Program-made: the position numbers and the translations under genes
The notes under the pieces: model-generated
Told to the model about the DNA's origin: nothing
Seen by the model: the letters and a program-made list of their open reading frames with translations, nothing else
The model's database searches: none
In this document: in pieces, positions 1 to 35,501 of the stretch
Position numbering within the stretch: the first letter of the stretch is position 1
Layout: every line of letters begins with the position of its first letter
Source: Gymnorhina tibicen
Lineage: Eukaryota; Chordata; Aves; Passeriformes; Artamidae
Assembly: GCA_013399875.1 (NCBI GenBank)
Contig: VXAZ01018984.1
Span: forward strand, 8,458,206-8,522,205
Direction: 5' to 3'
Length of the DNA stretch: 64,000 nucleotides

Positions 1-3000
1 GAAAGTTGGGGCGAGCTTTTAATAGAGTCCTCTTAGGTAATAAATAAGTGGCAAGTGAAAAGGAATTTGAGCATATAACTCATAACTCCAAATTATTTAC
101 CCGTATTGTGTTCTGTCACTGCTAAAGGTCTTAACTTTCATTTTGTCTTTTCAATCACATCTTTACCACAGTGACCCTTTGCATTATTTTTGCTGTAAAA
201 TTTTCTCTAAATTTCTGAAGAGATCCAAGTTTTGTTCCCTGTCATTATATACTCACCAAATTTTCAACTAGTTCACATCTTGTATTGCTTTCTCTTGCCA
301 CAAACTTAGCTGCGCAAAAACAGGCGTATATGCAAATAAGTAGGTTGATCAAAGGATCTAAAGCTGAAATTTGGTTGACTTTGTTTGGCTGCCTTCAGAG
401 GTTGCAAATTAGGATGTCTTGTGTTTCCAGCGCCCTGAGGTGCTAGCCTGGAGAGAGAGGGTGGCTGCTGAAGATGGTCTGCTTAGTCCAGCAGTCCTGG
501 CTAAGCAGACTGGAAGCAGAATTCAATGCACAAGCTGGACCCAGAGTAGAGGCGTGTGTCTGCACATTGCTGCAGGTGGTTAAGTGAGGCTGGTCACACT
601 CCTAAGCCCCCAGGGCATGGCAAAGCCGTGTTACTGCATGCAATGATTCTGCCTTTGGTACCAATGTACCCAAGAGTTTTTCAAAGTTATGCAAACTTAA
701 CTAGAAGCATGGAGTTGCAAGGCATTGCAGCTGCAATACAAGTCAAGCTCTCTGAGCCCTGAAAAGTAGGAAATCTTAGTAATATAGGTGCCAGGGAATT
801 TAAGTAGCTACTCATAATGCAGCTGAGAGGAAGCACCAGGCTGGCTTGCATAAATTGATTGCATGCCACTAGATACTCTTTATAAATTCTGTGATGAGGA
901 CAGCTGCCCTAGGAAATGTATAAACAAAAAGATGCTGTTCAAACTTCACATGCAGCTTTGGGAGGCACTGGGACTTGAGAGCGTGCTTAGCAGGTAGGTG
1001 ACCTAGCAGTCGGAAATGCCTGGTACAGATGGTAGTCAGTAGCTGAGCGTGTGGTGTGGCACATGCAGAATGCAGGGCATGGTTCAAGGATGAAGACTTG
1101 GGCTGCTGTGCAGCCGGAACACCCCATGTGCCTGGGCCAGCCTGTTGCAATGAGGTCTGAGCTTGGAGTTAGCAGCTGATCCTGCTGAGAACAGCCCAGG
1201 GAATGGTAGCACAGCTTTGTTTGACAGCATTTGCAAAGTTCAAACGTACCCTATGCAGAAAGCCCAAGAAATAGGGAGATGGACTGTTCTGATTCTTGCT
1301 GATCCCTCTGGACTGACTGCCATCAGCACAGCTGTGCTGCCAGTGAAATGACTGACTGTGAAACCACGCTCTTGCTTGCTGCATGATGAAATGGGCAACA
1401 TTTAAACATCTGCAGCTAATCTGGACCTACTAAAGCAACAGGAAGGAGCACACTTTGCTTGTGCTTTGCAAAATTAGCAGTGCCTGAGAAAGGACTTGAT
1501 CTCAAGTAAGAAGGAAATTTGTTTGGGTTTGAATGAAAAAAAGGACAAAGTACTTTCATCAAACTTTCTGCAACTGGTAATTTAGTGCTCAATTAATAAC
1601 TTGCCTTCTGTTGAGAAAGAAAAATATGCATAGTTTCTTATATACCTGATATCTTTTGCTACAATTTCTGTATTAAAACTCGTGCAAATACTCAAATGAT
1701 GTAGTTGACTTTACTATGATAGGGAAACGGTCAGCATGATGTAGAAACATGCAGTGTTGTTGTCACCATGCAATCACTGTTGTAAGAGGTCCCTCCCTCC
1801 ATGGTGCTGCAGAGACCATTGCACCAAAGCTGGGCAATAGCAAATGAAGGTGACTTCAGGAGCACCAGGGAGACTCTTAGTGGATCAGTGGTGGCACCTG
1901 GAAAATTCAAGTGGCACTGCTGTAGGTGCCAGTCAGTTACTCCTCAAGCAGCTGGTGAGGGAAGGCAGCGTGGCTCAAATGCTGGAAGGCTGCAAGATCT
2001 GTGGTGTTTGCCATCCCTCCTCCACAGCACAGGAGACAGCAGTCTGATGGTGTCCTGGGTAATGCTTCAAAACACTTAAATAATCTATTTGTAACAGAAT
2101 TATTTTGTATTCAGAATCACGGCTGTCAAATTGCTTTGCACTCTGTCATTAGCTCAGTGTTTGATACAACAAAACTAATAGCAATAAACTTTTGCTGAAG
2201 TTCAATGCAATTTGCAACTAATAGTAACTATTTGTGTACAGTGGTCTTTAACTCACAGAGAAAACTCAAATGAGTCTCTCTCTTACCCCTCTTACCCAAC
2301 AGCTGTTGTGAGCAAGTTACTCCTTCATCTGTTTTTCCACTGAGAGATGCTCTTTATTGCAATGCTTTTCCAGAGCTGGGTGGACAGAGGAATGTCCAGT
2401 GTGAACTCAGATCTAGTATGGACATGACTTGAGACAGACACAGTGCTTCTTTAGACTTGTGTTTGGTTTTTGAGATTTTCTGGTGCGTATTACTTTGCTG
2501 GCTTTTTGATATGCTTTTTAACATAAAGGTTCTTTTCTGTAAAATGGCGCTTCGTAACTCAGAAAAGGGAGCTGCCTTGAGCTGAGATTTTCTGTTCTGG
2601 TAGTTTGTCCTGTTTCCAAGGTGATGTTGCAGAGGAAACATAGGAAATGCTTCAAATCCACCCCATATCCAGGTATTCTAATGAGGGTGAGAGGAAGATG
2701 GTGTTTCCTAATACAGATGTGCTAAAATTTTTGTTAGCTCTTGTAGAGTCTTGAAAAGTGGTCTGTAGAATTAAAACAAGGGATCACATTAAAATAACTG
2801 CATCGTCCTTATTTTCAGTGGGTTACATAGTGCAGTGGAGAAAGAATAAAGCTTCCCTCACTGCTATATCAAAGTTGTCTTGACGCTTCTCCAAACCAAA
2901 GGCACTTGCTTTTGTGTAAGATATTGTTTCCTCTCCCAGGATGAGCATTGCCATGAGATAATTTTCTGAGAGATACAGACATTACTTATACTATACACAC

Positions 3001-14158: not shown

Positions 14159-14167
14159 GGTCTGAAC

Positions 14168-14301
14168 ATGAGTACCCAGCCACACACTGTGACCAAGACA
14201 GAGATCCCTGGCCACGTTCATTACGCCGTAGGAACGTGTGTGCTGGTTATTGGCTCCATCGGCATCATCGGAAACCTCCTAGTCCTCTACGCATTTTATA
14301 G
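14168..14301 (+). CDS. OPN4X: OPN4X coding exon 1 (residues 1-44)
   Basis: A pyrimidine-rich acceptor ends at 14158. Nine bases of leader (GGTCTGAAC) precede the ATG. The exon encodes the short N-terminus and membrane segment 1, ending with TTT TAT AG before a GTAC donor at 14302. The two leftover bases join C from exon 2 to give Ser45. The leader is open in frame with the ATG, so translation could in principle begin in an upstream exon that I could not find. Confidence 0.9.
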
Positions 14302-17300
14302 GTACAAAAATTCCTTCTGTGGTTGATCTGAGTGGCCTTGAGTTTCACCTGTGTCTGTGTGCAGATTTCTGCATTGCTTTCCTCTTGGATTAAATCTAAT
14401 GGCAACAAATGGGGGGGGAAAGAGGGAAGAAGGCAACCTTACACACACAGATACACTTCCATGTACATCATTGACAACCTCAGTGTAAATTCTTAATGTT
14501 TTAAGGAATCAAATAAAATGAGAAAATAATACCTTTTTCTATAAGCAATTTCCAATTGAAAGTTTAAAGTATGGTTTAATACTTCTAATGATAGAAACCA
14601 CAGTCTTGCAGCTGCAGACTTCTTCACTTACCCTGTAGTGACTGCAGAAATACTTGACAAACACTGAGACTCTTCCCAGGAGCACAGATGTCCTGAAAGG
14701 ACCAAGAAGGCAATGTGCTACATGAAATGAGCTCATGCCACCAGTGTATTTCCTGCTTCAGGCAGATCATAGGATTTCTGTCAGTTTGTGTGCTCTCTTG
14801 GCAGAGTAATAGTCAGCCTAAGCTACTGCAGCTAGAGTATGCAAAAACCTCTTGGAAAAAAGAAATATCTGCCCTCTGTCCCACACCATGAGGCTGGATT
14901 TCAAAACCTTCCTCATTCACTACTTGCTGTCATTATGCATGGTGATGGAGAGGGGCCTTACAATGCTAGAGACACCAGTGGAGTTATGAACCAAGCGTTA
15001 GTTTCCTATTCTTAAATGTTTAAGACAAATAAATTAGTTATTTTGAATAACTGGCTTCTAATATGATTTAGAAAAATTGAATTCCTTGAAACTGTAGATA
15101 GCTTCATGGTTTTTTTTTAATTGCAGCACACGCTCTGTATTTGTCTTGAAATGTGTGTGGTTTAGCTGGTGTAATAAAAGCATTAAATTGTCAAAGTAAG
15201 AAAATCTGCACAGGCAGATGAGCTCCTGGGAAGGTGTGAACTCTGCACTCTCTCTCACCCTGTTTTTTCAGGCAGTTATGAGACCCAAGAATTTGTTGGA
15301 ATTGCAGCAGCACTGAGATGGCTTTCTCACTTTCTTTTTCAGTATTTGTTTATCAGCATGAGGAAAGAAATTCCTCAATTAGCTGCAAATAGTGTTATTG
15401 CAAAGCACATCAGAAAGGCCTCAGTTGTTTTCCTTGTATAAACTTTGCTTGCAGACTTCTGCTGCTTTCACACTCCTTGTTGTGGTGTTTAATGTTGCCT
15501 GTTCATCTGCAACTGAGAGCTTTCATTCTCTCTTATGAGATGTATGTAAGCAAAAGCACTTTTTCCAAATCTCTGTGTATGCTCTGCTTGTGCTGTAGCA
15601 CTTTGCAAAGGGTCATTTAGTTAGTGGTGTGTCAACCACTTCAGGTCAACTGTGTCAACACAACACCTCAGGTCAGCAATTTTTAAAGTATCACCAGAAG
15701 CAGATCCTTTGGCTCTGTAACTTTCTTCAGATCTTCCTCATGTGTAGTGCAAGACACAATCAATATTACAGCACTCCCAGGGAGCTGCTCTTCTGAAGAA
15801 ATCCATATTTATCAAGGCAGCTGAAACTCTCCTTAGCTTGAAGAGGAAGCAATCCATTTTATTGCTTCTGCTCTTTTCAATTATTTTGAAATGACTACAG
15901 CTGACTGACTGGTGATTAGCAATTGATTCACTGTGAGTAGCCATCAATTCCAACCTGGGCAGTATTTGCTTATGCTAGTAAGCAAAGTGATAAAGTTAAC
16001 TTTCCACTTTGTCTTTTTAAAATTATGTATTTCTCATGTTTTTTAAGCAACAAGAAGCTGAGGACTCCCCAAAACTACTTTATAATGAATTTAGCTGTGA
16101 GTGACTTCCTGATGTCGGCTTCTCAGGCACCCATGTGCTTTGTCAACAGCTTGCACAGAGAATGGATACTTGGAGACATAGGTACTTTTCAACACTAATT
16201 CCTACCTCGCCAGCTTTATGCTGCCTGCAGACTGCTTTAGCCACACCAGCCTTGGCTTGTGCCATGGATAGAGCAGCACAAATCTCTTGAGTCACAACCC
16301 CAGACACCATCAGTGACATGTCACATGTTTTGTATTACAGCTGTGATTCTTTTATCTTACATATTTTGGAAAGGAAGGAGTCAACATCCACATGTAATCA
16401 TGTTGCCCTTTAGCTTGTAAGGGAGATGTTGAAAATAGGTAGAAAAGTTTTAGTAAGTTGTAAATAGTTTTTCTGTATCATTTTGAGGGCTAGTTACTAC
16501 TTTTATTTAGAAATGTGTATGCTGATATCCACTCTTGCATACTTCTAGGAATCTCCTATTTAATTAAGATATTTAAATAACAATAGTCATTTGAGGACTC
16601 AGCAAATTTAAGCTTTCTTTCCAACTGCAGGAAAGAAAAGGTGATTCATGCTGAAATAATAGCTGAAATGTGGGTAGAGTAAGGACCTCAGAAGGCTCCA
16701 TGCTCTGGTGATCCTCAGCACATCATGGATGAAAACTTGCACCCACTAGTGGCTGTACAATGGCGGAGCAAGCCCAGAGACCATGTATGTTCAGTAGCAT
16801 AGAAAGGACTCTTCCTTAGTTTGAAGATATTTTTAGTCTTGCTCATCCCCGTAGATAAAATCAGTGCAAATTATCATGCTGTCACAAATGAAGCATTTGA
16901 TTTGGGCTGAGTGAGATTTGGTCCTTAGTTGCAGATTACTTATAAAGACTTTAGAATTCTGCTTTAAGGTTAGATCTGGTGTTTTTGCTGCCTGTCATTC
17001 CTAGTGGGCTCTTGTCTGTAACCACATGGGGCAATGGAAGAGTTCAAAGAATGGATGATCTTTCCACACAGGTTTCTCCATTAAATTCAGTGTAACTTTA
17101 CAAGTTTCCATCTGGTAGTGCAGTGCCTGAACACAGAGGGGGTAAAAAGGTCTGTTTCATGTAAAAAAAGTCAGTTCTTTTAAAAAGTACTGCCATTAAA
17201 TATAGGAGTTGGAGCTCTGTTTTACAGCTGGTCTCTTAGTCACCAAATTTAAACAACTTTACATTTTTAAGCCATGTAAACCAAAGTGATTTTTTGAACC

Positions 17301-20300
17301 ACCCATCTATCATTAACAGACAGATGTCTGCTGCAGCATGTTAAGATCAATATATTAGGCAACAGTCCAGGAAAATATAACTTTAATTAGATTGGATTTT
17401 CTCTGAGGCAGTTTTCCATTGACAAAAGGTTCCCAGTTGCAGCCTGCAGTGAAGTAGGACTTGTTTAAATACATATATTTGTATTTTATTTATATTTGTG
17501 TTTTTCTAATAAACATTTAATAACTATGAAAATGTGAGGCTAAGGAAATTCTTCTATTGAGAGAGAAGTCCTGAGCCAGGAAAAACACGGGAGATTTATT
17601 ATGATGGGCTCTGAGAGAAAACATGCCTCTTTTCAGGAAAACCCCTGACGCTGCCATTTTCTTCTTCAGGCTGTAACTTGTATGCGTTCTGTGGGGCTCT
17701 CTTTGGGATAACCTCGATGATGACTCTGCTGGCTATCTCCGTTGACCGCTACCTGGTGATCACAAAGCCCCTGCAGTCCATCCAGTGGACTTCCAAGAGA
17801 CGCACCCTGCAGATCATTGCTGTCGTGTGGCTCTACTCACTGGGATGGAGTGTGGCTCCGCTCCTCGGCTGGAGTATGTTGTCTGCTCTCTCTCTCCTAG
17901 CATTCCCTGTGTGCTCTTTTTAGTCTTGCTTGGAGTGTAAAAAAATGAGTTTTCTTATCAGTTCTTGAAAGGGTGCCCAGCCACCACCTGATGGTTTGTT
18001 GTTGTAGCACACATCTGCACCTACTGCACTGTAGAAACCCTCTGCCCCCCTACACCCTGGATGTATTCAAGCAGATCAATCTGCAGATGGAGTATTAGGT
18101 GTGTGCCTGAGAGTTCAGCAGTCAGGACCTCCTCTCCATGTGGGCATTCACTTCTCAGACCACATATATAATGTATAATTTGGCCAGCACAGCTCTCGAA
18201 GACCACGGATACAGGACAGGGTTTATTTTAAGGGCTTAATGGTTGGATCAGCACCTGCGCTAACTTTGGGTGTATGTGTGAATAATGTGTTCCATGTATT
18301 CCATAGGTTCCTATGTGCCTGAGGGCTTGATGATATCCTGTACGTGGGACTATGTAACCTACTCCCCTGCAAACAGAAGTTACACCATGATTTTGTGCTG
18401 CTGTGTGTTTTTTATTCCCCTGGTAATAATATTCCATTGCTATTTATCAATGTTCCTGGCCATAAGGCGGACTGGCAGGTAAGCAATGTAGCTGAAAGAA
18501 GTATGTATCCCTTTTCTTGTAGTAGAAGATTTTCTCAATTTCTTTAGCTGCAGAAACATCTGGATCAAAAATTAGTCTGTATTGAAATTGGAACTGTAGT
18601 GGCAGATCATTAACAGCAGTAACAGGAGAAATATTTTTTGCCAATTTAAAACTGGAATGGATGTATGAATTTCAGAGTAGAAAAAGAAGTCTCTGGTGGT
18701 TCTAATCTTATTCCACTGTAGTAATTAATAGTACATCAGATAATTAGATTGAGCTATTTGTATTTCAGATTTGCACTACAAGAAACAAGGTCCTTGTGTA
18801 TTCCAGCAGTTTTCAGCCTCAAGGGATAATAAAAAACATGTAGCCATGTGGGAATCTTCTGCTTTTGAGCAGCTCTGTAAACATAACAGTCCTCATATTT
18901 TTTGACAGTTTTATTTAAGGCAGGCATCCCAAAAACCATTGTGCTTCACTCAAGCATCACAACCACATGCACAATATCTGGCTATGCTTGCTCAGACTTT
19001 TTTCCCCAAAAAAATTTTGGTCTATGTTTGACATGAAAAATCAGCAGGGTGTTAGATCTGTAAAGTGACATCATTCTATCAGTTATTTTTCTGTTAATGA
19101 GCACGTGGCTTATCTTTGGTCTAATCCAGAACCAGCTGGTGCTGTGAGTCCTTCCTCAAGTCCTTCCTCAAGTCCTTCCTCAGCACAATTGCTGCTCAAT
19201 TGTGTCATCAGTTCTGATGGCTTTTCTCTGCTCCTGTCTGCAGGCACTTGTTGAAATCATTTGGCTTCATAATGCTAAATTCCACTTTTATAAGCACATT
19301 TATATATGCCTAAAATGAAGTTCTTTCTGAACTCTTAGTTTTTGGCCTTTGCCTTGTTTTCTACTGTGCTTTGTGTATGTATACTTGACACCAAGTGAAG
19401 GAGTAAAGAATGCATCCTTAAAATAGTGGTGTCTTGTACACCTATGAAGCACAGTGGACATAAGATTTCTCTATGCCTTTTGCAAGGCCAGGCTGGATGG
19501 AACTTTGAGCAGCCTGGTCTAGTTGAAGTTGTCCCTCGTCATGGCAGGGGTGCTGGAACTAAATAATCTTTAAGGTTTCTTCCAGCCCAGGCCATTCTAT
19601 GATTCTGTGATTCTATTCTATATTTACCAGTGCACCAGCAGGGAGTTTGTTACCCTGCTGGCTGGTAATTAATGTCTTCAGCCTGAAATAGATCTCCATT
19701 TAACAACACTGATATGTAAAAATTATTTTCTATGCTAAAGTATATAAATTGCCTAACCATATAAAACTTTTTAAAATTAAATGTGGGGTGTTTGGAGTAA
19801 GAAGAGAATTTGATGTTTTGTGACAAAAATATTAGTATTAATTAGCCTGTTGTACCTCCCCTTGAAAGTACTCTTTAATAAATAAATCTGCAAGTAAGTA
19901 AAAATGTCCTTGCAAGTGTTTGGGACAGGTTTCTCAAAGCTATCAGGGTATTCCAGCGTGTGTTACCTCATGAACTGGAATTTCTGCAAGCTGTTTCTTC
20001 TTTGAAAAGACATAAGACTTGATTTTTCCATGCAGCTGTGCCTTTGCTTGCTCCACCTCCAAGAGCAATGAAGGGCAAGAAATACCAATTTCTGTATCTT
20101 TGCAACCTGAAACCCTCATTGTGTTAGGGATAAGGACACAGCAGTCCTGTCCTGCAGTCCCAGGGGTTCTGGCTCAGTCTCACAGAAAAACGTAACAGTT
20201 GCAACCACATTAATTACCTTCTAGGGTTTTTAAGTATCAGAGGAGAAAAGAAGAGTTAGAGCACGGAAATATGAAATTTATTTCATTTTGCATATTGCTG

Positions 20301-23300
20301 AGAACTTACTAGAGATGTTGCTTTTTCATTTTCCTGCTGAAATATCTGTATTTCTTTTCCCCCTCACAGAGATGTTCAAAAGTTGGGGTCCTGCAGCCGG
20401 AAATCCTACCTCTCTCAGTCCATGAAGAATGAGTGGAAGCTGGCAAAAATTGCATTCGTGGTCATCATTGTGTTTGTCTTGTCCTGGTCTCCATATGCTT
20501 GTGTCACCTTGATTGCCTGGGCAGGGTAAGTGGAAAATTAATCCAAACAGCAGGGGTTTTGCAAATATGTTTTAGTGCTGTCACCCACAAGAGGCATATC
20601 TCCTTTTTGAATGGGTCTTAAATAATTATTACATTAGGAGNGTGGGACTATGTAACCTACTCCCCTGCAAACAGAAGTTACACCATGATTTTGTGCTGCT
20701 GTGTGTTTTTTATTCCCCTGGTAATAATATTCCATTGCTATTTATCAATGTTCCTGGCCATAAGGCGGACTGGCAGGTAAGCAATGTAGCTGAAAGAAGT
20801 ATGTATCCCTTTTCTTGTAGTAGAAGATTTTCTCAATTTCTTTAGCTGCAGAAACATCTGGATCAAAAATTAATCTGTATTGAAATTGGAACTGAAGTGG
20901 CAGATCATTAACAGCAGTAACAGGAGAAATATTTTTTGCTGATTTAAAACCCGAATGGATGTATGAATTTCAGAGTAGAAAAAGAAGTCTCTGGTGGTTC
21001 TAATCTTATTCCACTGTAGTAATTAATAGTACATCAGATAATTAGATTGAGCTATTTGTATTTCAGATTTGCACTACAAGAAACAAGGTCCTTGTGTATT
21101 CCAGCAGTTTTCAGCCTCAAGGGATAATAAAAAACATGTAGCCATGTGGGAATCTTCTGCTCTTGAGCAGCTCTGTAAACATAACAGTCCTCATATTTTT
21201 TTGACAGTTTTATTTAAGGCAGGCATCCCAAAAACCATTGTGCTTCACTCAAGCATCACAACCACATGCACAATATCTGGCTATGCTTGCTCAGACTTTT
21301 TTTCCCAAAAAAATTTTGGTCTATGTTTGACATGAAAAATCAGCAGGGTGTTAGATCTGTAAAGTGACATCATTCTATCAGTTATTTTTCTGTTAATGAG
21401 CACGTGGCTTATCTTTGGTCTAATCCAGAACCAGCTGGTGCTGTGAGTCCTTCCTCAAGTCCTTCCTCAAGTCCTTCCTCAGCACAATTGCTGCTCAATT
21501 GTGTCATCAGTTCTGATGGCTTTTCCCTGCTCCTGTCTGCAGGCACTTGTTGAAATCATTTGGCTTCATAATGCTAAATTCCACTTTTATAAGCACATTT
21601 ATATATGCCTAAAATGAAGTTCTTTCTGAACTCTTAGTTTTTGGCCTTTGCCTTGTTTTCTACTGTGCTTTGTGTATGTATACTTGACACCAAGTGAAGG
21701 AGTAAAGAATGCATCCTTAAAATAGTGGTGTCTTGTACACCTATGAAGCACAGTGGACATAAGATTTCTCTATGCCTTTTGCAAGGCCAGGCTGGATGGA
21801 ACTTTGAGCAGCCTGGTCTAGTTGAAGTTGTCCCTCGTCATGGCAGGGGTGCTGGAACTAAATAATCTTTAAGGTTTCTTCCAGCCCAGGCCATTCTATG
21901 ATTCTGTGATTCTATTCTATATTTACAGTGCACCAGCAGGGAGTTTGTTACCCTGCTGGCTGGTAATTAATGTCTTCAGCCTGAAATAGATCTCCATTTA
22001 ACAACACTGATATGTAAAAATTATTTTCTATGCTAAAGTATATAAATTGCCTAACCATATAAAACTTTTTAAAATTAAATGTGGGGTGTTTGGAGTAAGA
22101 AGAGAATTTGATGTTTTGTGACAAAAATATTAGTATTAATTAGCCTGTTGTACCTCCCTCTGAAAGTACTCTTTAATAAATAAATCTGCAAGTAAGTAAA
22201 AATGTCCTTGCAAGTGTTTGGGACAGGTTTCTCAAAGCTATCAGGGTATTCCAGCGTGTGTTACCTCATGAACTGGAATTTCTGCAAGCTGTTTCTTCTT
22301 TGAAAAGACATAAGACTTGATTTTTCCATGCAGCTGTGCCTTTGCTTGCTCCACCTCCAAGAGCAATGAAGGGCAAGAAATACCAATTTCTGTATCTTTG
22401 CAACCTGAAACCCTCATTGTGTTAGGGATAAGGACACAGCAGTCCTGTCCTGCAGTCCCAGGGGTTCTGGCTCAGTCTCACAGAAAAACGTAACAGTTGC
22501 AACCACATTAATTACCTTCTAGGGCTTTTAAGTATCAGAGGAGAAAAGAAGAGTTAGAGCACGGAAATATGAAATTTATTTCATTTTGCATATTGCTGAG
22601 AACTTATTAGAGATGTTGCTTTTTCATTTTCCTGCTGAAATATCTGTATTTCTTTTCCCCCTCACAGAGATGTTCAAAAGTTGGGGTCCTGCAGCCGGAA
22701 ATCCTACCTCTCTCAGTCCATGAAGAATGAGTGGAAGCTGGCAAAAATTGCATTCGTGGTCATCATTGTGTTTGTCTTGTCCTGGTCTCCATATGCTTGT
22801 GTCACCTTGATTGCCTGGGCAGGGTAAGTGGAAAATTAATCCAAACAGCAGGGGTTTTGCAAATATGTTTTAGTGCTGTCACCCACAAGAGGCATATCTC
22901 CTTTTTGAATGGGTCTTAAATAATTATTACATTAGGAGTGATATTTCATTCTTCACTATTTCCTTGTCCATAAAGCCAGAAAAGGGATTATTTGTCTATG
23001 CATTTTGAACCTGTTATGACTTTTTAATCTTAATTTTTGGTTTACAATATTTTCTCTCCCACATGATGCTTTCTTCATATAAATTGGAGGAGTTATCTCT
23101 TTTATCTCCTAATACCCTCCTTCCTTCCATACTCTGCTGTCTCCTCCAGCCATTCTCTGCTCCAAAGGGACCTAGTGTCTTGTCAATGCATGTTCTGCTT
23201 TTCAAGGCCAGGTTGGATGGGACTTTGAGCAAGCTCATCTAGTGAAAGATGTCCTTGCCCATGGCAGAGAGATTGGGCTAGATGATCTTTAAAGGTGTCC

Positions 23301-26300
23301 TTCAGCCCAAACCATCCTATGATACCGTGATATTAACTGTGCTTATCCTGCACTAACATTGATCACACTGACTGTGGGAGCATAAAGTCAAAAGGGTTTC
23401 AAACTACTTCCAGTCCTCTCTTCCTTCTGCAGTGTTTGGAACTGAGTCACTGACAAACATTACTGTGCAGCACAGATGCTGCTGCTGCAAGATTTTTTAG
23501 GTTTGATTCTGTTTTCTTTTCTATAACCATTCACTTTTCCCAGATGGCCACAATGGGGGTTCTTTTGTTGGGGTTTTGGGGCTTTTTTTGTCTTTTGTAG
23601 AAGCAGGGAAGGTGATTCTTTGTGTTCCTAGTCATCCTAAAATTACTTGCTGCATGTCTTTGATCTTCTCTAAATGAATGAAACCAAGCACATGCTGTCA
23701 AATTCAGGCCTTTCATCTGGGCAAAGAATTCACTTGAATGAATCAACTTTTCAGGTGTATTTCTTATGAAAATATAACAGCACAAAACCAGTTAAAAGGA
23801 CTAATATGTTTTAGTAATACAGTATCCATGTAATCCATGGCATATCTGTGTGTAACGTTTTTGCTTTGTTTTAGTCGAGGCAACAGCCTAACACCATATT
23901 CCAAATCTGTGCCAGCAGTTATTGCCAAAGCTTCTGCAGTCTACAACCCCATCATATATGCAATAATTCACCCAAGATACAGGTACAGTAAATATATAGG
24001 TATGTGTATAACTGTACATGCAAATGTGGATCTTTTATCCTCTCCCTCAGAGCCCTGCTCTGCCCTGTGGAGCTGCACAACACCGTGACTGACAGGAGGA
24101 GGAGGTGATGCTCAGGGTCATCTTTCATCATATCAGGGGCAGCCACTACAGACCACTGTCCAGATAAAAGGTCCCAACCAGCGAGGCTCAAAAAATCACA
24201 TCCTCACCAATTTAAGCAGCTATATATGCATGTGTTGAAGGTTTGGTTTTCTGAAGCATTTTTTCACCAAAAATTTTGAAACACTGGCAGCAAAAAATAC
24301 CGTATTATATAAAGGGGATATACTTGTAACAGAACTGCTATTCAGCATAACTGTAGGATTTTTTGCAAGTCTTTTAAAGTGTAGCTACCACAAAGGGATG
24401 CTGTGTCTAAAGTTCTGAGAAATCACAGAGCTGCCATGGTGGTAAATGTGACAAACGTATAAACACCACTAGATGGCGAGGTTAGTCGTTGGTATGAGGC
24501 TTGTTTCACCCAAGAAGTGGAAAAAATGTTAAGTTCCATTGCCTGACAACTAGGACTTGGGAGCTGGAAATTGAGTTCATTGTTTTGGATGTCTGATGCA
24601 TGGCAGTGTGGTTGTAAGAAAAGTGAAGACTTCTTAGAAGGCTGGTCGAAATACATCCAAAACAGTTGGAAACATAGAATCATAGAATGGTTTGGGTTAG
24701 AAGGGACCTTAAGTATCATCTAGTTCCAACCCCCTGTCATGGGTAGGGACACCTTCCACAAGACCAGGTTGCTCAAAACCCCATCCAATCTGGCCTTGAA
24801 CACTTCCAGGGATGGGATATCCACAGCTTCTTTGGGAAACCTGTTCCAGTGCCTCACCACCATCACAGTAAATTTCTTCCTTATATCCAATCTAAATCTT
24901 CCCTCTTTCCATTTAAAGCTATTCCCCCTTGTCTTATCCCTACATGGCCTTGTGAAAATTACTTCTTCAGCTTTCCTGTAGCCCTCATTCAGGTACTGGA
25001 ATGTGCTGTAAGGTCTGCCCAGAGTCTTCTCTTCTCCTGGCTGAACAGCCCAAGTCTCTCAGCCCATCTGCAGAGGAGAGGTGCTCCAGCCCTTTGGTTA
25101 TCTTCATGAGCTCCTCTGGACTTGCTGCTGCAGGTCCATGTCCTTCCTGTACTAGGGACCCCAGGCTGGATGCAGCACTGCAGGTGGGGTCTCACCAGAG
25201 CAGAGCAGAGGGGCAGAATTCCCCTCCCTTGCCCTGCTGGCCACACTGCTTTGGATGCAGGACATGGTCCAGGACATGATTGGCTTTCTGGGCTGTGAGT
25301 GCATATTGGTGGCTCATGTCCAGCCTCTCATCCACCAGCACTCCCAAGTTTTTCTTCTCAGGGCTGCTCTCAATCCATTCTCTGCCCAGCCTTTGTTTGT
25401 GCTTGGGATTGCCCTGACCCACGTGCAGCACCTTGCACTTGGCCTTGTTGAACTTCCTGAGGTTCCCACTGGGAAGCTGGTGGGCCCACCTGTCCAGCTT
25501 GTCAGGGTCTCTCAGAATGGCATCCCTTCCCTCCAGCGTGTCAACCACACCACACAGCTTGGGTGCTCCCAATCCCACTGTCCATGTCACCAACAGCGAT
25601 GTTAAACAGGGCTGGTCCCAACACCAACCCTTGAGGACACCACCCGTCACTGAGCTCCACCTGGACATTGAGCCATTGACCACAACTCTGAGTGTGACCA
25701 TCCAGCTGATTCCTTATCCACTGGGTGGTTCGTCTGTCACATCCATGCTTTTCCATTTTAGAGACATATTTTGTTTGAAAATGTCTGCTATCATGACAAA
25801 CACCTTTTGCATCCTCCAAAAACCATCTGAGTTTTTTGAAGTCTACAGAGTATTTTAGTTTAAAGTAGGAGAATGTCTAGTTTCTGATGGGCTGCGGAAG
25901 TTCAATGAGAAGTTTTCCATGTCTGGCTGATGTGTTTAGGACCCATTATTTGTTTCTGAACCAAAGTTACTGTGTTCAGTTTATTATTTTTGCAAGGAAC
26001 AGGTTGCCCAGAGAAGCAGTGGATGTTTCCCTGAAAGTGTTCAAGGCCAGGTTGGATGGGGCTTTGAGCAATCTGGTGCTGTGCAAGGTGTCCCTGCCCA
26101 TGGCATCAGGCTTGGAACTAGATATTCTTTAAGGTTCTTTCAAGGTCCCTTCCAACCCACACCATCCTATGGATCTGTGACAGAGAACTGCTTCAGTCAG
26201 TCTTTTTCTATCAGCATTGGCTTTTTAAGACTGTTAAGAAAAAGGCTGGAGTCCACAACAAGATTTCAGACATTTTCTTAATAAGTATCTTGTTCTATCT

Positions 26301-29300
26301 TGTTTTATTTTTTTCTCTGCTTTCTAATTTGTATTTCTAGACATATCAACAAGAGAAGTTTTTATGGACTTGTTGTGAAGACATTTCATACACTTGGGAG
26401 CCATCCAGTCAGAAAAAGAAGTAATGTTGGGTCCCTTGTGATAAATCAGGAATGCAGTTTCAAAACTGGAAAAAACCCTACAGTACACCAATAAGTCAGT
26501 TGGCAAAAATACATTGGCAGGACCAATTTTGCTTAAACAGTGAATAATGAATATATATGTTAAGAATATTGTTCCTGGATAACTTCCAAATCTTCTGATT
26601 ATTCACATTATGCCTTGAGAGTAATTTATCCAAGCACAGATAAATGGGCCAGTCTGTTCAGGCCAAAGGGTTAAGGGTTTGAGCAGGGGATAATTTGTCA
26701 TTTTATATTGGAACTACTGAAACCAAGTTACATCTAAGTTATTTTCCAAATCTTTCTAGAAAGAGGCATCCAGAAATCAGGATCAAAAGAGTTCAAATCA
26801 GGCTCAAACCAGTAATGTACCACTAGCAAAGCAAGATGCTTTTTTTCACAGAGAATTCCTGACACTGGATCTTAACATCGCAACAAAAACAAGCCTTTTT
26901 GTGGGGTTTCCTTACCTTAAAAAATGGAGAAAATTACATTATAGTGAATGTAACTGAAAATGTAACAGTGACCTTTGTGCTAGCACTTGGCTTCTAAGAA
27001 CTAGTCTGAGAGTTTGCTATATCCCTCCTCATCCACCCATCCTCCTGCCCACCCATTCTCCACCAGTGTAAAGGAGAAAAACACTTCTGCCTAATAGGTC
27101 TCACAGGAAGTAATGAATGTAAGTGCGGAATGTACTCAAAGTTTTAATTCATGAAATGCCCTTTTGTGTGGGGAAGAAAGCTTTCACATCTTTAACAACT
27201 TGTATGTTGTCTCTATGTTCCACAATAACTCTAACACGTTGTGTTAGAGTTGTTGCAGAAACTCCCTTACATTTTGGAAGTTTTAGGTTTTGTAATCATT
27301 CTTTCATAGCAAACAGGAAATTCTGAAACTCCATGTTTCCAACTGGCTCCCAAATGAAGCAGAATGACACAAAAATTATTGGTTCAAAACTCCTACATCA
27401 TAAATAATGAATAATCATAAATAACTTTGAGTTGCAGTATTTTCTCAAAAAGTTGCTTGCAACTACTATATCTTTTAATTTGGGTGACTCTTTTATTTCA
27501 GATTACAAAAATATCATTAAAGAAGTACCTCCGTTTATGCCTATTTTGTATTTCACCCATACAATATTAAAACTCTCTTCAAAATCTGTACTTTCATCCC
27601 AACCAGCAATATGTCCCTCAGTAGTCCTTCCAAATACTAGTAAAATAGAAACTCTGGTCCCTCAAGACATTCAGAAATGTTCATATGTTTTCCTTGAAAA
27701 TTCACCATCAGACATTTATTTCCTGAATCTACAGCATTAGAAGACCTCTGCACCAAATCCCACTTAATAAATGTGATGGTGTGTTTTACACTAACTTGAA
27801 GTTGTCAGAGGGAAGTAGTTCAGCTTCTCAGCTGGGGAAAAAAGCTGTCAGTTGCTTTTCAGCACCAGACTGAGGTCTTCAACCTGAAAGGAAGTTTGTG
27901 GGGGTTTGAGGTTCTCTCATGTCCTGTAAACGCTTTTTCAGGACTTCTTATTTTGTGCACAACATTAACCGTCTTTTTTTACCCCACACCATGCAAGGAG
28001 CCTTCTGCCTTAAGCAGCTCGGTGGGCTCTGCCAGGTCACCGACAGCATCTTGGCAGGATCAGGAATGATGGTGCAGGCAGCTTTTTCAGTCCTCATCTC
28101 CAGAGTAGATACAGAGCTGCTGTTCACTTGCCTTTGAAATTAGAGAGGAAAGAGATGCAGAACTATTCTGAGAGTGCTGATGATGCCAAATATTGAGGTT
28201 TGGAAGTGGTGGGTTTCTTTTTTTGATTACAAGTGAGTGACCTCATTTCATGATCTCAGAATCATGTCTCTGAAATTTTAACGTGTGATCTTTTGTGAGA
28301 ATAGAAATGATGATTTAAAATGTACTGATTATTCAACAAACCTGGTAGGTATAGAAGCAAAAGATTTTACAATATACATCTGCTTGACTTGCATCTCAGA
28401 GTAAAGTCAATGTACTGACATCCTCCAGGGATCCGTAGTCCCCTGCATCAGTTCCTTGCCATATGCCATGTGCCATATTCCTTGCTTGTTGCTGCCTCAC
28501 TTCTTGACTTGTTCATTTAGTTTTGTGCCGCTATTAGCTTCATCTGTTGGGCTGAAATAATGGATTGGGAAGTGCTGGGGAGGTGTTACACCAAATGAAG
28601 CGTTCCGACTAGCACTGCCCTGCGAGGAGCAAGGCCAGCTGGCATTACACAGGGGAGGCTCTTGGACACTTCTGCTCCATGCAGGGCCAGGGTTGCAGTC
28701 AGGAGAAATAGACTCACACTGCATGACTGAGATTATTATTTAATGAATAAGGCAGACTTGGGTTCTAGACCATCCTTCTCTATGCTTGTACAGAGTTAAT
28801 TTTTAATAGGAGTTTACAGTAGCTGCCGTGATATAAATAAGTAACAACATCTGATTCTTCTGGCCCTCTTCCCTTTTTTCCGCTCATTCTGTGCCTTTGC
28901 ACAGTGAAGATCTTTGTACTAACTAGCCTGAAATTCTTCTGGGTTAACATTTTAAATAAATCAGAAGCAATCATGCTCTTCGAGATATTTTCAATTCTTG
29001 TCACTTACCTATGCAGCTCTTCTGTATGTTTTGACACAAGGCCCAGAAGGACCTGTTATTTTCTTTTCAGCCTGCTGAGTAGTTTGCACCAGCTATACCA
29101 TGCTGTTTGCCTGTAATCTTTAAGACCCCCTTCATCAAAACAGAAGCTGTGTTGAGGTGATGGAAAGAAACAGTGTTTTCACCACATGAATTTCAAAGCC
29201 ATGTCTTCAGTGTGACAGGTTTGGCTTTTTTTTCTTCTCACATTTTCCTTCAGAAAAACCATCCACAAAGCTGTTCCCTGCTTGAGGTTCCTGATACGAA

Positions 29301-32300
29301 TATCAAAGAATGACCTCCTGAGGGGATCCATAAATGAGTCATCATTCAGGACCTCTCTTTCCAGCCATCACTCTTTTGCTGGCAGGACCAAGAGCACTTG
29401 TGTTTCCTCTGTTGCTACTGGAGAAGCTGTAAGTCTTTTCTTGTTTCCATGAAAGAAAGTGAGTATAACATTTCTCAGACTCTAAATAAGCAACTCCATG
29501 AATAGATATTCAAAATCAGAGAACAGAAAAGGGAAGGAGGAGAGTGTAGCTAAATTTTTTGGGTCATGTGAGGTCATTTCTGCAAAGCTGGAAGTTCATG
29601 CATGATGATTTATGATCAGAAAAAGCATTCAGGCCAGCATGTCTGTGTGGTTCTGATGCCTGCTGGGACCAAGGATGTTCAGGTTAAGTCTTTAATGTGA
29701 ACTAAAAGAGCCATTGTCAGACACTCCCTGTGTCACCAACTACTGGCTGAAATTAGGTAGCTCACTGAGCTGGAGGACAAGAAAATAATCTTTCGTCCAA
29801 AGTTTTATAACCTATCCAAAAGCTGTTTTATTATTTTAAAAGAAGTCCATTTTCTGTAGGATGGGAAATTTTTTATTTCTTTACCTGGATTTTAACCATG
29901 AGGAGTGAAAGGCTCCTGCCCCTAGAGCATGGTGGGGTGTTTTGTAAGAACACACCCCAAATGTCAGTAAGGCTGGTGACTGAGTGAGAGAGAAACAAAA
30001 GAATCCCTTGAGACTCTTCACAGCCTCTTTCAGTCACAAGAACTGGCCTTGCCTGCAGAGGTGCTGGAAAGGTGGCTCTGGGGGAGTGACAGCCATAGCA
30101 GTCTGGGCTGGGGCTGGCCTTCCTGGGGACCTGTGCTGCTCCCCCTTAGTTCGGGCATCAAAAACCTCCCAGAGCAACAGCTGCCGCCAATAACCTCTCA
30201 CAAAAGTATAAATCCTACATATACCTTTTATACATTTAGGTATAAAAACCTAACTTTTCTCCTCCTTATTCCTTTGTTTGATGCCAAATGAAGTAATTTC
30301 AGCTGCATCATCCATCCTGATCCAAGAAGCTTTCTGTTCTTCACTGTTGGTCACTACTTGGTTTTGGTTTGTTCATGTTAGCAGGTTACTGTGTGTATTT
30401 CGATGCCGGTGCTGCTTACATAGACAGGATAATGAGGGTAAGAGCTACAGCTTTTGGCACAGCTTTGGCTTAGGAGTCTCAGTGAAAACCCCTGCTGTTA
30501 GCAGTGCACAGCACTGTGTTGTGCCGAGTTGATGCAGCCAAAGGCAATTGTCCTTGGGGCAACTGGCAGCTCAGAGCAGCTGTACAGGTTTTAGCTGGAA
30601 CAGCAGCTGCTGAAATAAAAGCTAAGCTCGATGACTTTGGCATGACACAGGACTGAGTGAAATTTTGGAATGCTCCAATAAAACATTGATGGGCAAGAAA
30701 TGACACCAGGAACACTGTAAAAGATGCAGCTGTTGCCACCAATGCTTTCCTCTGTGAGTTGTGTATATGTTAGTGTAGGGAACAAACACTTGTGAGTCAT
30801 ATCAAGGAACATTTCATTCAAGGAGTTTTATTCAACAAGTGAGGAGGAATAAACAGGTGGCCACAGATAGATGCATGAGCAAGGTGATGCAGAGGAATTA
30901 TGTGCTATCTTCCCACTTGTGTGGGCAGACACCTGTGTGTCTGCCTGCCTATCTGTCCTCTGTCTAGCCATATCTAAAAGCTGCTGTTGCAGTGGAATGG
31001 TCTCATCATTGATACTCAATCAAAAAGTCACCACAAAGTAAGGGATGACAGACAGCCTGGGCCCAAGCCTGTAAATGGAACAGCACTTTTGCAGTGTCCC
31101 CTTTGTGCTTCATTACTGACATGCTCTTAGAAAACTAGAGCAGAGCCCACCCACTGTCTCCCATGCACTAATGATGGTTTATAGAATTAGCAAGCTCATG
31201 CAGATTGAGAAGCTCTGGGTGTTCTGGATATTCTGCTGGGATGTATGCAGACTTGGTTTTGGATCTGTCCATGTCCATGGTTTTGTATCAGCTGGTGGTC
31301 ACACAGAATGCTGCAAGACATATTAAACAGATTGATTGTACTTGCTCCCATCTTTAGAATTCAGATGCTCTGCAGGTATAAGTATAGCATAAGCAGTGAG
31401 ATATAAAAGGGTGAAAAATATCCTGGTGAAAAAAGATTAAATAACTTTTCATTACTTCCAAATTGGTTTCGGTTTTTTTTTTTGTCAGCAAAATAGTCCG
31501 GTGTAAGTGACAAGATTGAAAATAAAGCCTCTCCCCAGGGGAGTTTTGAGCATGAGACCTGTGTTAGAACAGACTTAGTTTTCTGTGGATGTGCATGGGT
31601 TTTGCTAGAGTTTGAGAACTTCCAAGTATCTGAAAAAGGATGCAACCGGCTGAAATCTTTCTTCAATTTGTGATTAGACCTGGAGCAATGTAGAGCTTGA
31701 CCCTGTAGAGCCAGCTCACGAGAAACTGAAACCTCACCGAAGTCATTCTTTCTCCGCAAGTCTGAGACAAGAGAAGAGAGACCTGCTCCCAAAGACCTGC
31801 AGCTGCGATGCAGCCACTGCTGAAAAGGTATGGAAAAAAGTCTCAGCTGAGGACTCTCCGTTTTAGTGCTAATCTTGCTGCAGCACATCATCTCTGGAAT
31901 GATAATTCAGCCTTTATGCCCATCTATTTCATCTGTAGGCTTTATTTATACTGATTCCAACATCCTCTTCCTCCTTGCTGTTACTTCCTTTCTTTCTTTC
32001 TTTCTTTCTTTTTTTTTTTTTTTTTGCTGTGTGTGACAAATGAGAGTGCCAGTAATGCCTAATCAACTTTTTCGCTGATATTTGCCTGGGTTTGGAAAGC
32101 CAGCTCAGCTCATAGCTCTGAAACTGCATTAAGGCATAGTCAATAGCATCAAATGTAAGAAGATGAGTTCTTTGCCTCTTTGCCTGTTTATCTACCCCAG
32201 CTTTGGTTCCTTCCAACATGGCCCTTGTGTCCATACTGTGGCAGTCTCCTTTTATAGTAAAGTCAAATCTGCAAAACAGAGTTTGACGTGATAGAAGCCA

Positions 32301-35300
32301 CCCTTTTCCTTCTTTTCAGTGTACATTAAAATGTTTTATTTTTGTTGAGGGGGAAGACGAGAAAGAAACTCCCATTTCTCCCTAAGGGTGGGAGAGTCTG
32401 GCAACTGCCACCCTTCCCTCACTGAAAGAGGAGACGGTGAGTACCAGCGCATCTTCTGTGGATGCATCACCCTCATTGCCCTCACTGAGGTTTGGCATCC
32501 TGCTGTTGAGGAGCACCCCATTCCCTGGTGGGAGCAGAAGGTCACCCACGAGTCAGCTTCTGCCAGATTGTAACACCAGTTTCCAAACAAGTACTTGTGT
32601 GGGTGGCACAGTGTCAGGCACACACCAGTGCTGCCTTTTCAGGAAAAGACAGACATGGCTTACAATCCCCTGTCTGTGGCTGGACTGAGTAGCACCCCCT
32701 TTTATGATGGAGGCACCCTTTCATGGGGTTACTCTAGTGCATGTGGACAAACACCCACACCTTGGGCAGCTACAACATCTGCTTCTGTCCCCTGTGCTCC
32801 CTTCCAGATCTGATGGTAACTGTCTAGACACAGCACAGTTTAAAGCAGGAACGGCTTTGAAGATTTCCAGCCACCCGATGACCTGGTTCCTGCATGCCTC
32901 TGTCCTGTCTTCTTTCTTGTGTGTCATTAAGATCAAGTCCTGAGAAACCTTGTTCTTTTCCTGTAACTGTTGTGAACAGTATTGATGGAAAAACAGTGGT
33001 GTCACTCAAATGTGGTGTCAGGCAACATGGCCTCAATTTTGCTACTCAATTCTCTACCTTCTGTCAGCAGCCAAGTGTGTCCAAGGTTGTAGGCAAGTGG
33101 CAAAGGCAGGATATTGTCTCCAGGTTCTGGAGAATCATTGGCTTTCAGTCTCACAAGGAAGGAGAAGGGAAGTAAATCTCAGGTGGTCTGCATAAACGGT
33201 TCAGTAATAAAATAAATATTTCTGTATCTGGAATTTAGCAACTGTGTAGCCCACAAGAAGGCTCATGTGCTATACTTTGCCTTTGAAAAACATCTCTTGA
33301 ATTACTTTGGTAAATAACCCTTGAGACTTTCAGTGGCCTTCACTGAGATATGAGGAGTTTATTTACATTGAATGTTCAAAGCCTCATTTGCTTTTCTTAA
33401 TATTTTCAGCAGAGATTCCTGTGTGGTATGAAGGTCCTTTGTGTGTCCATTGCAGCTAAATGCAATGCATCACTATTCATACTATCAGAATAAATATTTA
33501 TTTGTCAAGCTCAGTTAGAGTGTTTGACAATGAGACCACCCATTTATCCTCAAAAAAAAAACCCCAACAAACCCTGAAGAAGCACCAATGCATATTTTAT
33601 ATTTATTTTAAGGTTTTAGTAGCATTACTGGATTTTCTTTAACTCAACTCCAATTCCTCAGTTGTGAAAAAGCCAGTCAGTGTCCCAAGCTTGGTGAGTT
33701 CCAAAGTATAAAAATGCATGTTACTGTTTTCTGTGCTGCCACAAAGATATGGTCCAGCCCCATTACTTACTTCAGTTAGTTAGGATAGTCACAAACTCGA
33801 TGTAGGCTGACACCTGGAAACTTAATGTGGCAGTGAAGAGGCCTTTCTGGAAGTATTAAAATGCAGGTTTGGATATTTGATTTCAAAGGAGAGTGGGCAA
33901 ATGTCCCCTCTGCATCCAGGTTTTGTTTCAAGGGATGACAATTATTTAAAAAATTGTAAGTGGGTGTTCTGCCCACTAAGCCACATCGTAAAGAAATCTA
34001 TCCTTCTGTTGCAGTGAAAACAGCAATTGAAAGAGGGAGCAGTGGTTTTGGAGTTGAGTTTTTTCATTCTATTATTATCTTTAATATGGAAGAATGGACT
34101 CTTCTTCTCTGTCACACTGATTTAAACCACTTTTTTTAGTACACTGTGCTTCCCTCCACTTCTTAGGTAGAGCAGCTGGAGAAATCACTATCAATAGGGA
34201 TTCATGAGTGATTCCTGCTTGTGGAGTAGAATTACACAAAACTATGGGAATTCACATAGTAATGAAGTAAAATCTGCACCTTACTTTAAGTGTAGTTTTT
34301 CTCTAGAAAGGAGGGACTTCCAGCTTATCTCTATATCTGACACAGTGGTTTTATCACCTTAACTGTAATTTTTTAAAGGAAGCCAAAACAGATCACTTAT
34401 GCCTTCCCTTGCCAGTGTATTTAAATATTAACTGACACTTTCAAAACTTACTTAGTTTACTCTGAATTTGCATACTGTGCACAAGGCTTATGGAAAGAAC
34501 ACAGAGGACTTGCCATTGGAACCAAGTCAGAAATCAGAATTCTCTCAAAATAGGCAGATAAGAAATTGTTAGCAAAGTGAATATTTATTGCTTCTTTCTT
34601 GGATGAAGCACTTTCCAACGTGTGAATGCAAGGCCACTGACTTCCCTGAGGTAGGACCAGGAGCCATTTGGGGAGAGACAGAGATTGTCACAAGGTTGAC
34701 AAAACTTCAGGAAAATAAAGAATGAAGTGTACTTGAGTCTTATCTGAGATCTCTTCCATGAGAAGAGAGAGAAGTGCAATTATCTAGTATGCTGATACCC
34801 TGAGATGTGTTAAAAATGGAGTAATACCATGATTTTATGATGAGATACAGGAATGAGCTTTTGTTTTCTTCTTTTTTTTTTTTCTTTTCAGTCTCTGCTG
34901 ATATTTGAGTACATCTTCTTTTGCTTCATTTAACATTCTGCTTTCCAAGCAGTACATGTTAGCACATAATGATTTTCTCTCAAGTTAGTGATTCAAGTGT
35001 TTAGAAAATTAGCCTGGTGGCTCAAATATTGACCAGTGGCAATGAATATTTCAAATACAGGTTTCCACAGCAATATAGTGTCTGACCATGCTAAAGCTTA
35101 TGTCCCCGCTCCAGGTTTCGCTCTCCTCCAGCTGTTTGGAGCAGGTGCTTGGGCAGCCAGTCCTACCCAGTCCCTCTGCAGCACTTGTGAGCAGCTCCCT
35201 GAGAGCAACTTCTCTGCCTGTTGGATTGAATAGCAGCAGTGTCAGCAGAGGAGACTCAACTACGTCCCATATGACAACTCAAGGAAGTCAAGTGAATGGA

Positions 35301-35501
35301 GATCTGGATTCTGTCATTAACAATGCGGTCCCTCGCATCATCATCATTCCTACCTCAGAAACCAATCTGTTTCGGGAAGAACTGGAAGAGGAAGAGACTG
35401 AATTATTCCACTTTCATGACAAAAGAGGCAATCTGCTGGACTTGGAAGGGCTTAGCTCATCTATGGAGTTCCTTGAAGCTGTTGAGAAATTTCTATCATA
35501 A
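14168..35501 (+). CDS. OPN4X: Melanopsin, x-class (OPN4X/OPN4-1), nine coding exons
   Basis: Light-sensing G-protein-coupled receptor of the melanopsin family, which binds retinal and in known members signals through Gq. Joining 14168-14301, 16048-16181, 17670-17873, 18307-18478, 20370-20525, 23875-23982, 29254-29428, 31678-31827 and 35115-35501 gives 1620 nt, 539 residues and a stop, with GT-AG borders and matching phases throughout. Membrane segments lie near residues 18-43, 54-78, 91-113, 133-156, 184-208, 239-263 and 276-298. Visible landmarks are the disulfide pair C91/C169, Y94 at the counterion site (as in melanopsins), E163 at the site of bovine rhodopsin E181, DRY at 115-117, SWSP at 253-256, Schiff-base K285 and NPIIY at 291-295. 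N180-R-S is a glycosylation sequon. The tail is Ser-rich, then acidic (498-506). Assignment to the x class rather than the mammalian-type m class rests on remembered family motifs. The ATG opens the first recognised exon, which has an acceptor just upstream and an open frame 5' of it, so an extra N-terminal exon is possible. The duplicated segment at 20642-22938 is skipped. Confidence 0.95.
14302..16047 (+). other. OPN4X: OPN4X intron 1
   Basis: 1.75 kb, GT-AG. A G8 run occurs near 14411. No other gene or clear repeat seen. Confidence 0.85.
16048..16181 (+). CDS. OPN4X: OPN4X coding exon 2 (residues 45-89)
   Basis: The acceptor TTTTTTAAG ends at 16047 and the donor GGTACT starts at 16182. 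The exon encodes intracellular loop 1 (NKKLRTP, typical of opsins and especially melanopsins), membrane segment 2 with N59-L-A-V-S-D64, and the first extracellular loop. One base is left over and completes Gly90 with exon 3. Confidence 0.95.
16182..17669 (+). other. OPN4X: OPN4X intron 2
   Basis: 1.5 kb, GT-AG, AT-rich in its second half. Nothing else recognised. Confidence 0.85.
17670..17873 (+). CDS. OPN4X: OPN4X coding exon 3 (residues 90-157)
   Basis: The acceptor CTTCTTCAG ends at 17669. The exon encodes membrane segment 3 from C91 (disulfide cysteine) through Y94 (counterion-site tyrosine) to the D115-R-Y-L-V-I-T motif, then intracellular loop 2 and membrane segment 4. It ends GGC TGG A before GTATGT. 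The A joins GT from exon 4 to make Ser158. Confidence 0.96.
17874..18306 (+). other. OPN4X: OPN4X intron 3
   Basis: 433 bp, GT-AG, no repeat recognised. Confidence 0.85.
18307..18478 (+). CDS. OPN4X: OPN4X coding exon 4 (residues 158-214)
   Basis: The acceptor ends CCATAG at 18306 and the donor GTAAGC starts at 18479. The exon encodes extracellular loop 2 with E163, C169 and the N180-R-S sequon, then membrane segment 5. From 18344 onward the sequence is repeated at 20642, but the repeat lacks this exon's acceptor and its first 37 bases. Confidence 0.96.
19147..19182 (+). repeat. Three perfect tandem copies of a 12-mer
   Basis: AGTCCTTCCTCA repeated three times without change. The duplicated segment carries the same three copies at 21445-21480. 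Confidence 0.9.
19485..19617 (+). mobile_element. CR1 LINE 3' end, in duplication copy A
   Basis: Starts AAGGCCAGGCTGGATGGAAC and ends with the CR1-type octamer repeat (ATTCTATG ATTCTGTG ATTCT). Only the 3' untranslated tail of the element survives. Confidence 0.85.
20370..20525 (+). CDS. OPN4X: OPN4X coding exon 5 (residues 215-266), first copy
   Basis: The acceptor CCCTCACAG ends at 20369 and the donor GTAAGT starts at 20526. The exon encodes intracellular loop 3, where melanopsins couple to G protein, and membrane segment 6 with S253-W-S-P256. It is 156 nt (52 codons), and an identical copy with the same splice sites lies at 22668-22823. Only one should be used in the mRNA. Confidence 0.93.
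20641..20641. other. Single unresolved base at duplication junction
   Basis: One N lies exactly between the two copies of the 2.3 kb duplication, the usual mark of an assembler or gap-filling join. Confidence 0.98.
20642..20776 (+). pseudogene. OPN4X: Partial second copy of OPN4X exon 4
   Basis: Identical to 18344-18478 but cut off at the 5' side by the N, so it has a donor and no acceptor and cannot be spliced in normally. Probably an assembly artefact rather than a real pseudoexon. Confidence 0.85.
21783..21914 (+). mobile_element. CR1 LINE 3' end, in duplication copy B
   Basis: The same insertion as at 19485-19617, carried by the second copy of the 2.3 kb segment. It is not an independent insertion. 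Confidence 0.85.
22668..22823 (+). pseudogene. OPN4X: Second copy of OPN4X exon 5
   Basis: Identical to 20370-20525, with both splice sites intact. Because it is 52 codons long in the same phase, a gene predictor could include both copies without breaking the frame. That would double intracellular loop 3 and membrane segment 6, which is not compatible with a seven-helix opsin. Which of the two copies is used in the model does not change the protein. Confidence 0.85.
23203..23332 (+). mobile_element. CR1 LINE 3' end fragment
   Basis: CAAGGCCAGGTTGGATGGGA, then GATGATCTTTAAAGG and a decayed octamer tail (CCTATGATACCGTGAT). About 130 bp of CR1 3' untranslated region in OPN4X intron 5. Confidence 0.8.
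23875..23982 (+). CDS. OPN4X: OPN4X coding exon 6 (residues 267-302)
   Basis: The acceptor TTGTTTTAG ends at 23874 and the donor GTACAG starts at 23983. The exon encodes extracellular loop 3 and membrane segment 7, with the retinal-binding lysine K285 in VIAKASAVYNPIIY and the start of the cytoplasmic helix (HPRYR). Confidence 0.96.
24673..25825 (-). mobile_element. 5'-truncated CR1 LINE (about 1.15 kb)
   Basis: The left end is the CR1 terminal octamer in reverse (CATAGAAT twice). Moving right, the minus strand reads 3' untranslated region and then the C-terminal part of the ORF2 reverse transcriptase. At 25192-25701 the minus frame gives GVVDTLEGRDAILRDPDKLD and, further on, NLGVLVDERL, both typical CR1 ORF2 tail motifs. 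An overlapping minus frame (25541-25819) gives LGPALFNI, the post-YADD region. Frameshifts and 5' truncation make it inactive. Confidence 0.93.
25994..26182 (+). mobile_element. CR1 LINE 3' end fragment
   Basis: Starts AGGAACAGGTTGCCCAGAGA, passes through CAAGGCCAGGTTGGATGGGG and ends TTCCAACCCACACCATCCTA. It lies in opposite orientation to the larger CR1 just upstream and is a separate insertion. Confidence 0.87.
27223..27255. repeat. Inverted repeat, 15-bp arms, 3-base loop
   Basis: CAATAACTCTAACAC, loop GTT, then GTGTTAGAGTTGTTG. 14 of 15 pairs match, so transcribed RNA could form a tight hairpin. It sits in OPN4X intron 6. Confidence 0.8.
29254..29428 (+). CDS. OPN4X: OPN4X coding exon 7 (residues 303-361)
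   Basis: The acceptor TTTTCCTTCAG ends at 29253 and the donor GTAAGT starts at 29429. The translation begins KTIHKAVPCLRFLIRISK, a melanopsin-typical juxtamembrane tail, followed by a Ser/Thr-rich stretch suited to kinase phosphorylation and arrestin binding. It ends in phase 0. Confidence 0.94.
29429..31677 (+). other. OPN4X: OPN4X intron 7
   Basis: 2.25 kb, GT-AG. The open frames around 30480-30820 have no supporting features. No repeat family confidently recognised. Confidence 0.8.
31678..31827 (+). CDS. OPN4X: OPN4X coding exon 8 (residues 362-411)
   Basis: The acceptor TGATTAG ends at 31677 and the donor GTATGG starts at 31828. The exon has fifty codons, phase 0 at both ends, beginning TWSNVELDPVEP and ending CSCDAATAEK. 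It is cytoplasmic tail and lies in an otherwise non-coding 5.7 kb stretch. The assignment rests on phase, splice sites and resemblance to remembered avian OPN4X tails. Confidence 0.88.
31987..32025 (+). repeat. (TTTC)n microsatellite followed by poly-T
   Basis: About five TTTC units run into a T tract of roughly 18 bases. Confidence 0.9.
34892..34933 (+). CDS. OPN4X: Possible alternative terminal exon of OPN4X (short tail)
   Basis: A long T/C tract and CAG end at 34891, making a stronger acceptor than that of exon 9. Read in phase 0 from exon 8, it adds SLLIFEYIFFCFI and then TAA, giving a protein of about 424 residues. I recall long and short C-terminal forms described for bird melanopsins, which fits. 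No AATAAA is obvious close downstream, so a transcript using this exon might run on into the exon 9 region. Confidence 0.4.
   Translation, partial: SLLIFEYIFFCFI
35115..35501 (+). CDS. OPN4X: OPN4X terminal coding exon 9 (residues 412-539)
   Basis: The acceptor CCCCGCTCCAG ends at 35114, and the exon continues exon 8 in phase 0 to TAA at 35499-35501. It encodes a Ser-rich linker, then PRIIIIPTSE (484-493), an acidic run near residues 498-506, and the C-terminus VEKFLS. This is the long-tail form. A competing terminal exon lies just upstream at 34892. Confidence 0.9.
   Translation, partial: VSLSSSCLEQVLGQPVLPSPSAALVSSSLRATSLPVGLNSSSVSRGDSTTSHMTTQGSQVNGDLDSVINNAVPRIIIIPTSETNLFREELEEEETELFHFHDKRGNLLDLEGLSSSMEFLEAVEKFLS

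Follow-up and report, generated by a model that had tools for sequence, protein, structure and literature searches.

A probable false exon gain at a one-base gap in the OPN4X-type melanopsin gene of a draft passerine assembly

The window examined here, a stretch of 64,000 nucleotides from Gymnorhina tibicen, contains a melanopsin-type opsin gene in which exon 5 is printed twice, in two adjoining copies of one genomic segment. Judged from the assembled sequence, this is very probably a heterotype false duplication (a false exon gain) in a draft passerine assembly and not a biological feature; in other words, we almost certainly face an ordinary assembly error and no new gene structure. The original prediction, that the assembler placed two haplotypes in tandem, is strongly supported, though not proven. 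Four things speak for it: the dovetail ends of the copies, the SNP-like differences confined to introns, the open frame obtained when a single copy is used, and the fact that this artefact is documented in bird assemblies.

The two copies and the gap between them

In a self-comparison of the window, two consecutive copies, both 2297 bases long, match over their full length (Table 1). They share 99.347% identity over 2298 columns, with 13 mismatches and two one-base indels, and they meet at one N, just as had been claimed from the sequence. BLAST gives this self-match an E value of 0, and at a cut-off of 1e-5 it is the sole self-match longer than 190 bp in the window; chance is therefore ruled out. 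The other eight self-matches listed (E up to 1e-5) span 64-187 bp at 71-84% identity and look like dispersed repeats. The offset between the copies had been described as constant at 2298. This holds over most of the length, but from about 18897 to 19627 the offset is 2299 before it returns to 2298, because the two indels compensate each other.

Table 1. Coordinates of the duplicated segment and of the gene that contains it.
Feature	Position	Strand	Basis
Copy A, closing the left contig at its 3' end; holds exon 4 (base 38 onward), the intron, exon 5 and the beginning of the following intron	18344..20640	+	alignment, exon mapping
One N, taken to be a scaffold gap flanked by contigs with an end overlap of ~2.3 kb	20641	.	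position of the N; its meaning deduced
Copy B, opening the right contig at its 5' end; 99.35% identity with copy A; taken to be the other haplotype	20642..22938	+	alignment
OPN4X-type melanopsin gene	14159..35501	+	homology for core exons; tail boundaries by eye
OPN4X exon 1	14159-14301	+	numbering presumed in the original prediction
OPN4X exon 2	16048-16181	+	core exon
OPN4X exon 3	17670-17873	+	core exon
OPN4X exon 4, whole, with acceptor and donor	18307-18478	+	splicing
OPN4X exon 5, copy A, 156 bp	20370-20525	+	splicing, copy comparison
OPN4X exon 5, copy B, same sequence as in copy A	22668-22823	+	splicing, copy comparison
OPN4X exon 6, 108 bp, in frame	23875-23982	+	core exon
OPN4X tail exons	start at about 29254, 31678 and 35115; last ends at stop codon 35501	+	boundaries by eye

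There are four runs of N in the window, at 7936 (1 base), 20641 (1 base), 47593-47743 (151 bases) and 61360-61386 (27 bases). For each of them the 3000 bases to the left were compared with the 3000 bases to the right on the same strand, and the best three matches were kept. At 20641, bases 704-3000 of the left piece, the latter being its last base, match bases 1-2297 of the right piece, which is a perfect dovetail overlap. Since the match runs to both edges of the gap, the start of the right contig determines 18344 and the end of the left contig determines 22938, as expected when overlapping contig ends are placed one after the other. Such an overlap is found at one of the four gaps in the window, and the only long near-identical repeat is the one that adjoins a gap.

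An observation that does not favor a false duplication is that the flanks of the other one-base gap, at 7936, do not overlap; their best match covers 29 bases at 83% and is more than 1.2 kb away from the N in both flanks. A one-N run thus does not always mark a false duplication in this assembly. The N at 7936 sits in a GC-rich stretch, which we take to resemble the LTR of a bird endogenous retrovirus. The two longer gaps fall in a TA microsatellite (47593-47743) and a C homopolymer (61360-61386), and give only matches of 15-16 bases inside those runs. Gaps in such tracts are usual where a draft was assembled from short reads and the gap lengths were estimated.

A second point on the same side is that the meaning of a one-base N is itself deduced. 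The available portions of PMC5368935 and PMC3158087 do not state that a one-base gap is used for overlapping contigs, and a literature search on what a one-N gap means found no paper with the phrase 'single N'. According to the portion of PMC5368935 available, ALLPATHS-LG gives overlaps between contigs as negative gap sizes, and SOAPdenovo2 frequently places a gap between contigs that overlap.

Separate from the duplication, the introns carry repeat fragments that are 71-79% alike and lie on both strands (19483-19613, 21782-21912, 23201-23323, 24669-24847 and 25996-26180). One of these fragments belongs to the duplicated segment and is therefore present in each copy. They resemble the 3' ends of CR1 LINEs. 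An Rfam scan of the window gave no matches.

Gene structure and identity

When spliced with one copy of the segment, exons 1-6 form a single open frame from start to end. Exon 4 would encode what we take to be ECL2-TM5, and exon 5 ICL3-TM6. The tail exons match other bird proteins. The model spans exon 1 onward, and some relatives, e.g., P0036, carry sequence upstream of exon 1. It had been proposed that exon 5 is complete in both copies and exon 4 cut in the second, and this is what the alignment gives: the first 37 bases of exon 4 (18307-18343) have no counterpart in copy B, and neither does the splice acceptor. The parts of exon 4 that are shared (18344-18478 and 20642-20776) are identical, as are the exon 5 pieces.

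The gene is, by sequence similarity, most likely a bird OPN4X-type melanopsin. The piece encoded by exons 4-5 matches PF00001, the rhodopsin-family 7TM domain (E 6.8e-13), and its best PDB chains belong to entries named Rhodopsin (4ww3, 2ziy, 2z73), which we assume to be squid rhodopsin. Structural relatives of the rhodopsin type are as expected for a melanopsin. When the protein of the six core exons is used as query, all 303 residues align with OPN4 of the lark Alaudala cheleensis, at 97% identity. Other matches, among the 120 listed of 1054, are melanopsin-like, melanopsin-B-like and opsin 4xa/4xb proteins of birds, turtles, lizards, frogs and fish; the names opsin 4xa and melanopsin-B-like agree with the x type. 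The top score among the 120 belongs to a protein model from a fish of the herring family, P0001 of Alosa alosa, at 70% identity over 73% of the query, because its own repeated segment raises the score.

Several of these homologues are irregular in their own right. In P0001 (446 aa) the TM2-TM5 segment forms a tandem repeat, whose two units look identical by eye. This may be a further case of false exon gain in a melanopsin gene, or perhaps a real duplication. Unlike other birds, P0036 (Lonchura striata) lacks ECL2-TM5 and P0102 (Pluvialis apricaria) lacks TM3-TM4, perhaps as a result of annotation or assembly faults. In three bird models labeled 'isoform X2' (P0017, P0019 and P0021) exon 5 is joined to the first tail exon, and the TM7-bearing exon 6 is skipped.

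Differences between the copies

The copies differ at 15 places, all of them intronic: 13 substitutions (11 transitions and 2 transversions) and two single-base indels, one of which is a homopolymer length change (T6/T7). The substitution difference, 13 in about 2296 bases or 0.57%, presumably falls in the range of songbird heterozygosity. A literature search on lark heterozygosity found nothing direct. The 15 differences imply that each copy should have its own k-mers.

Two features of the distribution deserve comment. One is the absence of differences from the exons. Identical exons had been offered, together with SNP-like intron differences, in support of the two-haplotype reading. The intron differences do lend that support. 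However, the shared exonic bases make up only 291 of the 2297, and with uniform placement no difference would fall in them with P about 0.17 (13 substitutions) or 0.13 (all 15). The identical exons are thus weak evidence. For the same reason, we rejected the idea that they are a sign of selection on a real duplicate. The other feature is a cluster: a stretch of 80 bp holds six of the 15 differences, for which P is about 0.0007 under uniform placement. Independent SNPs would not give such a cluster, which counts against the two-haplotype reading; it could stem from a multi-base allelic change or a local error.

From first to last, the differences span 1.7 kb, leaving identical arms of 231 bp before the first and 331 bp after the last. 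These arms suggest that each contig ran past a heterozygous stretch into sequence common to both. The most likely scenario is as follows. The locus would be single copy and heterozygous in the sequenced bird. The left contig would have followed one haplotype to 20640, and the right contig would have started in the other haplotype at 20642. The end overlap of ~2297 bases would have been left unmerged, and the scaffolder would have set one contig directly after the other, with a gap of one base as placeholder. The copies would then be alleles, and the N would stand for a negative or minimum gap.

Weighing the alternatives

What if the duplication is real? The printed DNA does show two copies, and a recent tandem duplication that took in exon 5 and its introns could be fixed in this songbird or still polymorphic. 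In that case the truncated second exon 4 would be skipped, and exon 5 would either be spliced twice or have its second copy used alternatively. Exon 5 (156 bp) is splice-compatible with itself, and a transcript with exon 5 twice keeps an open frame through exon 6, adding 52 in-frame residues and a second ICL3-TM6, a point that the original prediction did not mention. This is why a frameshift, considered as an argument against a real duplication, had to be rejected. Copy B's exon 4 could not splice normally in this setting, lacking as it does 37 bases and the acceptor, and a second TM6 would be expected to upset the seven-helix topology unless the exon were skipped. The homologues are of no help to this idea either. 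The exon 5 peptide is found by BLAST exactly once in all 120 of those listed among the 1054 matches, and twice in none, although these are predicted proteins, in which a second copy could have been removed during annotation.

Both edges of the duplication fall exactly at contig ends, and the junction shows no microhomology: the base before copy A is C whereas the last base of copy A is G, and the base after copy B is T whereas the first base of copy A is G. The gap would also need a separate explanation. A real duplication would need it to fall at the junction by coincidence, with four gaps in 64 kb, or to reflect an assembly break caused by the repeat. The latter is a fair objection to a false duplication, since a true tandem repeat could itself break contigs at the junction of its copies. 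Taken together, we regard a real duplication as very improbable.

A false duplication of another kind would be the homotype, in which the same haplotype was assembled twice and the differences are sequencing or assembly errors. The dovetail geometry alone cannot separate homotype from heterotype, one of the 15 differences is the change in homopolymer length, and six are clustered. However, 11 of the 13 substitutions are transitions, and the differences extend across the interior of the overlap, starting 231 and 331 bp inside its ends. Alleles fit this pattern better than error-prone contig ends do, and the homotype seems to us slighter still in probability than a real duplication. The heterotype false duplication is the reading that we retain.

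Implications and comparison with known cases

The practical message is one of caution. Gene prediction on this assembly could yield a melanopsin in which one exon is doubled, and as that exon is in frame, there would be no stop codon to reveal the error. In older assemblies of three species 4 to 24% of coding genes were touched by false duplications, according to the portion of PMC9516828 available.

The OPN4X genes of birds have the same order of exon-encoded segments as the gene described here. Among the homologues listed exon 5 is single, and it is doubled only in the assembly printed here.

The nearest parallels come from work on assemblies. Heterotype false duplication and false exon gain (FEG) have been described in vertebrate assemblies, including those of birds (PMC9516828, available in part). 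The cases there consist of near-identical neighboring exon copies in one gene split by an assembly gap, and the present one has the same make-up: copies of high identity (99.35%, 2297 bp), a gap between them to which both reach, and a complete coding exon (exon 5) inside the duplication and belonging to the same gene. The difference is that those cases were confirmed by read depth, discordant pairs and k-mers, whereas this one is known from assembled sequence alone. A passerine parallel is the willow warbler, in which, as described in the available portion of PMC9883250, gaps with a negative size estimate were not collapsed and gave rise to false segmental duplications. There, as here, overlapping contig ends flank a scaffold gap. 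The scale is different, however. The overlaps merged in the willow warbler had a mean length of 111 kb and 3.28% divergence and came from optical-map scaffolding, whereas the overlap described here spans 2.3 kb with 0.57% substitutions.
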